64,000 bases of DNA. Source: Streptomyces sp. NBC_01431. Lineage in GTDB: Bacteria; Actinomycetota; Actinomycetes; Streptomycetales; Streptomycetaceae. The stretch spans positions 5,518,001 to 5,582,000 of the forward strand of contig NZ_CP109496.1 of assembly GCF_036231355.1 (NCBI RefSeq). Direction: 5' to 3'. Shown here in pieces: positions 22,816 through 25,444 of this stretch. The notes beneath the pieces are model-generated. The model was not told the DNA's origin, searched no databases, and worked only from the letters and a program-made list of their open reading frames with translations. Position 1 is the stretch's first letter, and each line of letters opens with the position of its first letter. The position numbers and the translations under genes are program-made.

Positions 22816-24930
22816 ATGACTCAGACACCCACACACCCGCAGGCGCACGCCCAGATCACCATCCCGGCCAAGCACCCCATGGTGACCATCCTGGGTTCGA
22901 GCGATTCCTTGCTGCGCGTGATCGAAACGGCCTTCCCGTCGGCCGACATCCACGTACGGGGCAATCTGATCAGCGCTGTGGGAGAGGCGACGGAAGTCGC
23001 CCTCATCCAGCGCCTGTTCGACGAGATGATGCTGGTGCTCCGCACCGGGCAGCCGATGACGGAGGACGCAGTGGAACGCTCGATCGCCATGCTCCGGGCG
23101 AACGGTGGGGCAAACGGCGGTGACGGCAACGGTCACCACGAGACGCCCGCCGAAGTGCTCACCCAGAACATCCTCTCCAGCCGCGGCCGCACCATCCGCC
23201 CCAAGACCCTCAACCAGAAGCGGTACGTCGACGCGATCGACAAGCACACGATCGTGTTCGGCATCGGTCCCGCGGGCACCGGCAAGACCTATCTCGCCAT
23301 GGCCAAGGCGGTCCAGGCCCTGCAGTCCAAGCAGGTCACCCGGATCATCCTGACCAGGCCGGCCGTGGAGGCCGGCGAGCGGCTCGGCTTCCTGCCCGGC
23401 ACGCTCTACGAGAAGATCGACCCGTATCTGCGCCCGCTCTACGACGCCCTGCACGACATGCTCGACCCGGACTCGATCCCGCGGCTGATGGCGGCGGGGA
23501 CGATCGAGGTGGCGCCGCTGGCGTATATGCGCGGCCGCTCGCAGCCCGTCTTCACGAACGTCCTCACGCCAGACGGGTGGCGCCCCATCGGGGACCTTCA
23601 GGTGGGCGACCTGGTCATCGGGTCCAACGGCGAGCCGACCCCCGTCCTCGGCGTGTACCCGCAGGGTGAGAAGGACATCTACCGCGTCTCGGCCCAGGAC
23701 GGTTCGTGGACGCTGTGCTGCGGCGAGCACCTGTGGACGGTCAGGACGCGCGACGACAAGCGCCGCGACAAGCCGTGGAGGGTCCTGGAAACCCAGGAGA
23801 TGATCGGGAACCTGCGTGCGGCCCATGCCCGGCGGTTCGAGTTGCCGATGCTCACCGCGCCGGTCAGCTTCCCGGAGCGCGAAGTACCCATGGACCCGTA
23901 TGCGCTAGGACTGCTCCTCGGTGACGGTTGCCTGACGGGATCCACCACTCCGTCCTTCGCCACCGAGGACGCCGAGCTCGCTCAGGCGTTGGAGGCTGCC
24001 CTCCCGGGAGTCTCCGTCCGGCACAAGGGCGGCCCCGACTACGTTCTCAACAGGGTGAAGTCGCCCGGCGGCGTGGTGACCCTGGAGAACCCGGTGACCG
24101 GCATGCTTCGCGAGCTGGATTTGGTCGGCACTCGCGCGCACTCCAAGTTCGTGCCGAACGACTATCTGTACAACACGGCAGAGGTCCGCCTTGCTGTCCT
24201 CCAGGGCCTGCTCGACTCCGACGGCGGCCCCGTCACGCAGAACGACCGCACATGCCGCATCCAGTACTCGACCGCATCGATCGTCCTGCGGGACGACGTC
24301 ATTGCGCTCGTCCAGTCCCTGGGCGGTGTCGCCTACACCCGGCGCCGACCGGCCGAGGGGCGGAAGCAGGGCAGTGCCCTGGCCGCCCACCGATACGACT
24401 CCCACGTTGTCGACATCCGTCTCCCCGAAGGCATCGAGCCCTTCCGCCTCGCTCGCAAGCGCGATGCGTACCACGCGGCCGGAGGCGGCGGGCGTCCGAT
24501 GCGTTTCATCGACGCGATCGAGCCCGCAGGCCGCGAGGAGGCGGTCTGCATCCAGGTGGCGGCGGAGGACTCGCTGTATGTCACGCAGGACTACCTGCTG
24601 ACGCACAACACGCTCAACGACGCGTTCATCATCCTCGACGAGGCGCAGAACACCAGCGCCGAGCAGATGAAGATGTTCCTCACCAGGCTCGGCTTCGATT
24701 CGAAGATCGTCATCACCGGCGACGTCACCCAGGTCGACCTCCCGAACGGGACGAAGAGCGGTCTGCGCCAGGTCCAGGACATCCTGGACGGCGTGGATGA
24801 CGTGCACTTCTCCCGGCTCACCTCGCAGGATGTCGTACGGCACAAGCTCGTCGGCCGTATCGTCGACGCGTACGAGAGGTACGACAGCCGGCCGGACCAG
24901 AACGGTCAGGGCGGCCGAAACGGGAAGTAG
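22816..24930 (+). CDS. phoH: PhoH-like ATPase containing an in-frame intein
   Basis: 704 codons encoding a 347-residue PhoH interrupted by a 357-residue intein (residues 242-598). N-extein: Walker A GPAGTGKT at 151-158, then [17 protein letters not shown] and PLAYMRGR. C-extein: [16 protein letters not shown] with Walker B at 605-609, and [12 protein letters not shown]. Spliced, the protein matches an ordinary PhoH (RNA-associated ATPase/putative helicase, whose neighbour YbeY acts in rRNA maturation). Start: ATG 22816 by family convention; ATG 22792 is also in frame but only 2 bases from GGGAGG. First gene of the phoH-ybeY-CNNM-mmcQ operon. Confidence 0.95.
23539..24609 (+). mobile_element. 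Intein with LAGLIDADG homing endonuclease, inside PhoH
   Basis: 357 residues from Ser1 ([14 protein letters not shown]) to the terminal His-Asn, with Thr as the +1 extein residue (LLTHN then TLNDAF). Block A is intact; block B reads TLCCGEHLW, with His64 but Cys in place of the usual Thr of TxxH. Endonuclease motifs [10 protein letters not shown] (121-130) and [11 protein letters not shown] (219-229) keep both acidic residues. Block [11 protein letters not shown] has the penultimate His. All residues for splicing appear present. Hand-counted lines inside are 58-62% GC, but flanking lines vary 55-77%, so composition alone does not mark it as foreign. Confidence 0.93.
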
Positions 24931-24943
24931 AGCAGAGCGCACC

Positions 24944-25444
24944 ATGTCGATCGACGTCAACAACGAGTCCGGAACCGAGGTCGACGAGCAGGCGATCCTC
25001 GACATCGCCCGCTACGCGCTCACGCGGATGCGGATCCACCCGCTCTCCGAACTCTCGGTGATCGTCGTGGACGCCGAGGCCATGGAGCAGCTGCACATCC
25101 AGTGGATGGACCTGCCGGGCCCCACCGATGTCATGTCCTTCCCGATGGACGAGCTGCGGCCGCCGACGAAGGACGACGACGCGGAGCCCCCGCAGGGGCT
25201 CCTCGGTGACATCGTCCTGTGCCCCGAGGTCGCCAAGCAGCAGGGCGAGGACGCCGAGACGCGGCACTCCATGGACGAGGAGCTCCAACTCCTCACCGTC
25301 CACGGGGTGTTGCACCTGCTCGGCTACGACCACGAGGAGCCGGACGAGAAGGCCGAGATGTTCGGTCTCCAGGCGGCGATCGTCGACGGCTGGCGCGCGG
25401 AGAAGGGCCTGACGGGTCCCTCCCCGGCGCCGACCGTCTCATGA
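24944..25444 (+). CDS. ybeY: YbeY, endoribonuclease for rRNA maturation
   Basis: 166 residues. The metal-binding [11 protein letters not shown] motif (His-x3-His-x5-His) near residue 125 and the [11 protein letters not shown] and [12 protein letters not shown] blocks are those of the UPF0054/YbeY family. It processes the 3' end of 16S rRNA and takes part in ribosome quality control. It follows phoH by 13 bp, the classical phoH-ybeY pairing, and its stop overlaps the next start (ATGA). Confidence 0.93.

Follow-up and report, generated by a model that had tools for sequence, protein, structure and literature searches.

The phoH gene of Streptomyces sp. NBC_01431 is interrupted by a long insertion, which raises the question of whether this is an intein and, if so, which of its residues starts splicing and how it reached a chromosomal gene. 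We analysed a window of 64,000 nucleotides around the gene (contig NZ_CP109496.1, positions 5,518,001 to 5,582,000), to which the coordinates below refer. The sequence comparisons make it very probable that the insertion is a mobile class 3 (WCT) intein, allelic with those of mycobacterial PhoH proteins, whose splicing would be started by Cys337 and whose LAGLIDADG endonuclease would support homing.

An in-frame insertion beside Walker B of PhoH

The phoH frame runs on the + strand from an ATG at 22816 to a stop codon ending at 24930 and encodes 704 amino acids. Its translation, together with Pfam, separates an N-extein of 241 residues (22816..23538, + strand) that holds Walker A and ends in YMRGR from a C-extein of 106 residues and the stop codon (24610..24930, + strand) that starts at TLND and carries Walker B. 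Between them lie 357 codons in frame (23539-24609). Joining the flanks gives a PhoH of 347 residues (241+106), and Pfam detects PhoH in the host as two stretches, one on either side of the insert (E 7e-91). The initial annotation had described exactly this 357-residue insert and 347-residue host, which the translation bears out, and its expected products of ~38 kDa (spliced PhoH) and ~39 kDa (intein) agree with calculated masses of 37.9 and 39.1 kDa. It had also placed the site six residues ahead of Walker B; this holds for the hydrophobic strand, which starts at about position 6 past the junction, but not for the Asp-Glu pair at positions 10-11. Base composition does not mark the insert, with 68.3% GC against 67.1% and 63.2% in the exteins. 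A chance origin is ruled out because 144 distinct sequences share the same codon boundary and related genomes have an unbroken site; removal of the insert thus restores a conserved host, PhoH being unbroken in 341 of 392 Streptomyces genomes.

Downstream of phoH are ybeY (24944..25444, + strand; Pfam YbeY, E 4e-36), whose ATG lies 13 bases past the phoH stop codon, and a gene for a CNNM/CBS/CorC_HlyC protein. A second PhoH-family gene is present elsewhere in the same 8.98 Mb genome as one unbroken match with no insert. No Rfam family reached threshold in the window.

A HINT splicing fold with a LAGLIDADG endonuclease

Alignment, Pfam, the predicted structure and Foldseek together delimit a class 3-type (WCT) intein of 357 residues, from Ser1 to His356-Asn357 (23539..24609, + strand). 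Pfam finds LAGLIDADG_3 in the insert (E 9e-9, residues 215-277) and Hom_end_hint at E 4e-4, below its curated cut-off. The predicted structure (mean pLDDT 89.9, pTM 0.90) has PI-SceI, the yeast VMA1 intein, as its best Foldseek match (E 4e-18), a broad match at ~16% identity in which the architecture of splicing and LAGLIDADG parts is shared. PI-SceI is a class 1 intein. After the endonuclease-bearing inteins, the HINT matches are the class 3 inteins MchDnaB1 (6riy, 6rix) and M. smegmatis DnaBi1 (6bs8), which cover ~100 columns of the splicing domain, together with a gp41-1 engineered to WCT (6riz). By sequence, a profile built from 40 homologues finds gp41-1, PI-SceI and the class 3 DnaB inteins in PDB. 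The HINT fold with blocks A, B, F and G is thus recognised by profile, predicted structure and Foldseek. M. smegmatis DnaBi1 and M. chimaera DnaB1 have the class 3 signature and the HINT fold in common with the intein of the window but differ in their host, DnaB, and DnaBi1 is described as having Ala1 and no endonuclease (PMC6195587).

Two LAGLIDADG motifs are present, the first of ten residues (23899..23928, + strand; acid D129, recognised from the sequence and the allele alignment) and the second reading LQGLLDSDG (24199..24225, + strand; acid D228). The complete intein, its His-Asn/Thr+1 end and both intact endonuclease acids, as proposed in the initial annotation, are all found in the sequence, and the element is a real, complete and probably active intein.

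Conserved residues point to class 3 splicing

Ser1 (codon TCG, 23539..23541, + strand) had been taken as the splicing nucleophile. Three further residues point to another mechanism and were overlooked in that first reading: Trp66, Cys337 and Thr355. Trp66 (B:12) lies in block B, CGEHLW (23719..23736, + strand; numbering of PMC5222942), with Cys61 (B:7) and His64 (B:10), in the order H64-L-W66. Cys337 (F:4; 24547..24549, + strand) sits in VCIQV and is the predicted initiating nucleophile. Thr355 (G:5) opens the THN end with His356 and Asn357 (24601..24609, + strand), followed by Thr+1. As worded in PMC5222942, Trp B:12, Cys F:4 and Thr G:5 mark class 3 inteins and an N-terminal nucleophile is not required. 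Class 3 is elsewhere defined as lacking a nucleophile at residue 1 (PMC5050341), more strictly as having no class 1 nucleophile at residue 1 (PMC3196547), or more broadly as having no Cys1 together with Cys at F:4 (PMC7891396).

For comparison we gathered alleles from 392 Streptomyces genomes, 394 genomes of the class, a scan of named genomes (the best 80 of 90 loci) and one plasmid-collection record. After removal of seven rows of duplicate DNA and of two loci (L072, L075) from genomes already represented, 144 distinct inteins at the identical PhoH site remained, an uneven sample in that the named set came from a mycobacterial query (best 80 of 90) and one allele with an in-frame TGA (G375) was left out. 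The regexes behind nearly all rows set no requirement for Ala or Ser at residue 1. They missed six of 77 rows (L052, L057-L061), of which L052 was added by eye and the other five lie in other host proteins, and they missed L100 and L101, which read AFMRGR and were likewise added by eye.

His64, Trp66, Cys337, Thr355, His356 and Asn357 are invariant in 144 of 144 alleles, so that the WCT triplet W66/C337/T355 is complete throughout. Residue 1 shows 127 Ala, 17 Ser and nothing else; residue +1 shows 143 Thr and one Ser; and B:7 shows 88 Cys, 55 Ser and one Thr. The initial annotation had noted Cys in place of Thr in block B (CCGEH) as unusual. The Cys is real, but it is no oddity, since a B:7 residue other than Thr is normal for class 3 and occurs in 143 of 144 alleles. 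The lone allele with Ser+1 (L052, junction THN/SLND) also has Ser1.

An ordinary class 1 intein, with the first ester made by Ser1, would account for Ser1 itself, His B:10, the His-Asn end and Thr+1, all of which are present. Ser1 is a legitimate class 1 nucleophile, and this speaks against a class 3 explanation under the strict wording, which excludes it. A class 1 nucleophile is, on the other hand, not conserved here: Ala1 occurs in 127 of the 144 alleles with the remaining catalytic residues kept, alleles 87-91% identical to that of the window include both Ala1 and Ser1, and the F:4 Cys, the B:12 Trp and the near-absence of Thr at B:7 hold across the set. We consider class 1 splicing very unlikely. 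The WCT signature and the prevalence of Ala1 disfavour Ser1 as the nucleophile; most likely that reading is wrong and Cys337 is the first splicing nucleophile. Since Ser1 breaks the strict wording and the broader ones are satisfied, we file the element as a WCT-family PhoH intein for which a class 3 mechanism is inferred, with Ser1 presumably a tolerated alternative to the prevailing Ala1 rather than a required nucleophile.

A further reading is that Ser1 and Cys337 can each start splicing, a class 1 entry having been added to a class 3 intein. PhoH class 3 inteins would then repeatedly gain Ser1, and the Ser1 alleles, that of the window included, would be natural two-entry inteins bridging classes 1 and 3. 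Ser is the sole alternative to Ala among the 144 alleles. A quick tree of the inteins, from which residue 1 was left out, calls for 16 or more changes to place the 17 Ser rows and does not tell their direction; it is weakly resolved (60 of 141 inner branches open), so this count is rough. The Ser1 codons are AGY in 10 of 17 cases, whereas other Ala-majority columns have AGY in 27 of 129 (Fisher p 0.002, ignoring relatedness), as though Ser1 did not simply stem from a recent single-step mutation of GCN. Shuffled labels, by contrast, give a mean of 16.4 changes, with 84 of 200 shuffles at 16 or fewer, so that the scatter of Ser1 is what drift would yield; inspection of the active-site surroundings by eye shows no residue that clearly tracks Ser1, which also occurs in some viral class 3 relatives. 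Two-entry splicing therefore seems improbable to us, though if it were true the Ala1 sisters would be ready-made controls. For the preferred class 3 reading, the recurrence of Ala1/Ser1 changes on the tree means that nature has repeatedly made the equivalent of an S1A substitution or its reverse.

The intein belongs to a known allelic family

The PhoH intein of the window forms one family with inteins described earlier in the PhoH genes of mycobacteria. PhoH inteins have been published for M. fortuitum and M. xenopi (PMC6195587) and for M. smegmatis (PMC7360933); they share the host protein with that of the window and are assigned to class 3 in a figure legend. Whether such inteins were already catalogued had been left as a check in the initial annotation, and it is answered by these reports and by the best 80 of 90 named loci, all 80 of which have a clearly homologous intein at the same insertion point in PhoH (78 by regex, two by eye). 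Their hosts are Mycobacterium, Mycolicibacterium, Nocardia, Gordonia, Skermania, Lentzea, Kutzneria, Saccharothrix, Longimycelium, Nonomuraea, Thermoactinospora, Actinacidiphila, Streptomyces and one unclassified Mycobacteriaceae MAG.

The named Mycobacterium and Mycolicibacterium loci, which come from species other than M. fortuitum, M. xenopi and M. smegmatis, have the intein at the insertion point of the window but differ at its first residue, with Ala1 in 28 of 28 (regex count) against Ser1 here. Identity to the intein of the window is 67% for L043 and 65% for L045, two alleles whose DNA equals that of named mycobacterial records. Likewise, five loci of the genus-wide search (L015, L019, L028, L029 and L030) match named Streptomyces records exactly in their intein DNA, from which the genus Streptomyces was deduced. 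Ser1 among these best 80 of 90 named loci is found in two of 22 Streptomyces and two of eight Nonomuraea loci. A same-site PhoH with a Ser1 intein is also encoded on an 11.85 Mb record of Nonomuraea gerenzanensis (L093, NZ_LT559118.1) that is filed as a plasmid but looks chromosomal. In the titles and abstract openings of the literature on PhoH inteins and on actinobacterial inteins we found no Streptomyces PhoH intein, which is not a claim that none has been described.

Streptomyces also carries a different type of intein, represented by L058-L060, whose host looks by eye like RecG; the C-extein of L058 matches Pfam DEAD and Helicase_C. These inteins show the WCT residues and LAGLIDADG motifs by eye at ~40% identity to the intein of the window but have Ala1 and are inserted after the Walker A lysine. 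Many rows of 36-44% identity from the Streptomyces search may be helicase-type inteins of this kind.

Patchy occupation and selection in Streptomyces

The PhoH site is occupied in 51 of the 392 Streptomyces genomes and empty in 341. The occupied genomes comprise 50 read at the site and G375, which is 55% complete, has an in-frame TGA and was judged from neighbouring PhoH pieces; the empty ones comprise 336 found unbroken by the site pattern and five with an unbroken PhoH by profile, and by eye no genome is in both lists. A PhoH tree with 51 occupied and 50 empty rows implies 28 or more changes of occupancy. Shuffled labels give a mean of 33.9 changes, with 5 of 300 shuffles reaching 28; the changes are somewhat fewer than under shuffling, so part of the pattern is inherited. 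One occupied genome (L028) neighbours an empty one (L212) on this tree at ~3% divergence.

Median dN/dS over the 51 Streptomyces rows is 0.17 for the endonuclease, 0.08 for the splicing part and 0.14 for the N-extein. Both LAGLIDADG acids are kept in 137 of the 144 alleles, which makes homing plausible. Over the same 51 rows, the median dS of the intein (0.66 and 0.88) exceeds that of the N-extein (0.44), a difference that we leave unexplained.

Shorter forms of the intein occur elsewhere (16 of 144 alleles have at most 347 residues) and one or both endonuclease acids are lost in seven of 144, as might be expected if the insertion were a decayed, non-splicing element kept as a domain. An open frame, invariant splicing residues and purifying selection on the splicing part all argue the other way, as does the fact that the insertion breaks PhoH beside Walker B, and we regard such decay in the window as scarcely credible. 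Six PhoH inteins of 280-308 residues (L174, L172, L157, L164, L165 and L166) have shortened endonuclease parts and are possible stages of decay; L166, L172 and L174 each lack a catalytic acid. Taken together, patchy occupation, selection, kept acids and shortened forms would fit a homing cycle of gain and loss.

Discordance between intein and extein was rejected as proof of transfer inside Streptomyces. Three pairs gave AU p values of 0.40, 0.61 and 0.54, and for two of these the constrained tree scored better than the unconstrained quick tree. Nor was any intein clearly younger than its extein in the 12 lowest-ranking pairs shown for intein dS minus extein dS. Given these AU tests and dS values, patchiness is the one line of evidence for movement inside Streptomyces.

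A viral PhoH with an intein at the same site

Among the best 80 of 395 viral relatives, one is a member of the PhoH-site group. It is a PhoH on a viral contig (L215, IMGVR_UViG_3300029915_000731, 1063-2781) with a WCT intein of 333 residues and Ala1, 52% identical to that of the window and inserted at the same point (MRGR^TLNN); Pfam detects PhoH in its C-extein. PHROGs assigns genes of this contig to a UvsX-like recombinase, a DNA polymerase exonuclease subunit and a nucleoside deoxyribosyltransferase. A search of the record for Terminase_6N gave no match, and the sole annotated-phage match of a neighbouring gene is in the 309 kb phage Tunturi_5. The WCT regex is passed by 78 of the best 80 of 395 viral loci, and in 75 of these 80 the insertion follows Gly-Lys, as it would just past Walker A; the viral PhoH is therefore exceptional in sharing the Walker B site with the bacterial alleles. 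On these sequences a phage route for the PhoH intein is plausible.

Annotated phages yield 535 records that match the intein, all below 60% identity, the top ones at 37-38% among the 40 matches listed. The lone PhoH label in those 40 belongs to GX15bay (L092, MK557849.1) and was rejected: by eye there are no PhoH Walker motifs around the intein, the label seems wrong, and the protein, which carries a WCT intein, looks portal-type. Another viral WCT intein (L219, IMGVR_UViG_3300005264_000005, 1501-2544) has Ser1 and lies after a Walker A lysine in a host that is PhoH-like by eye; it is at most a candidate PhoH, Pfam having found nothing in the two flank pieces.

In the 40 viral rows that start at residue 1 this residue is Ala in 32 and Ser in eight, a biased count, because local alignment with a Ser1 query favours well-scoring letters. 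Thirteen rows that match from residue 2 have Gly, Asp, Glu, Gln, Pro or Met at residue 1 (gapless offset). Some viral relatives thus seem freer at this residue than the 144 PhoH alleles, and, the viral counts being biased, we draw no support from an apparent restriction to Ala and Ser. Phage Catera (Gp206) reportedly has a class 3 intein with Ser1, treated by Tori and Perler in 2011.

Splicing as a possible regulatory switch

The initial annotation had suggested that splicing could gate PhoH and the coupled ybeY, an idea on which analogy alone bears. The intein might act as a switch, with oxidants or zinc blocking Cys337, so that mature PhoH would be delayed and the function of the phoH-ybeY operon affected. 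This is suggested by analogy with the class 3 intein DnaBi1, reported to be inhibited by peroxide and zinc (PMC6195587, PMC7360933), and by Cys61, a position that holds cysteine in 88 of 144 alleles and is perhaps close to Cys337. Yet position 61 is Ser in 55 of the alleles, and none of the cysteines (60, 61, 131, 239, 337) is near residue 48, the redox partner in DnaBi1. The 341 congeners with no intein and the uninterrupted second PhoH-family gene of the genome also weigh against such a role, which we find doubtful.

Proposed mechanism

Alongside the insertion, WCT signature, allelism, patchy occupation, purifying selection and phage allele found in the sequences, we infer splicing, the order of its steps, DNA cleavage and the direction of transfer as follows. 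Cys337 (F:4) would attack the Arg(-1)-Ser1 bond; His64 and Thr355 would complete its triad, and Trp66 would pack alongside. The N-extein would then move to Thr+1, and cyclisation of Asn357 would leave the two exteins ligated as a normal PhoH. A phoH gene that lacks the intein is probably cleaved at MRGR/TLND by the LAGLIDADG domain, a cut that would spread the intein, and phages whose PhoH is interrupted at the same point could plausibly carry it.

This reading would correct the mechanism of an intein that is widespread in actinomycetes and would be misread by the rules of class 1. A phage origin has been proposed for class 3 inteins (PMC3196547), and a phage PhoH allele at the identical site fits that proposal for a chromosomal bacterial gene. 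What remains of interest beyond the known family is that Ala and Ser recurrently replace each other in a class 3 intein: alleles with Ala1 and Ser1 at ~90% identity and a fixed WCT triplet form a natural mutation series for the role of residue 1, and the same series could probe how class 3 inteins descended from those of class 1.
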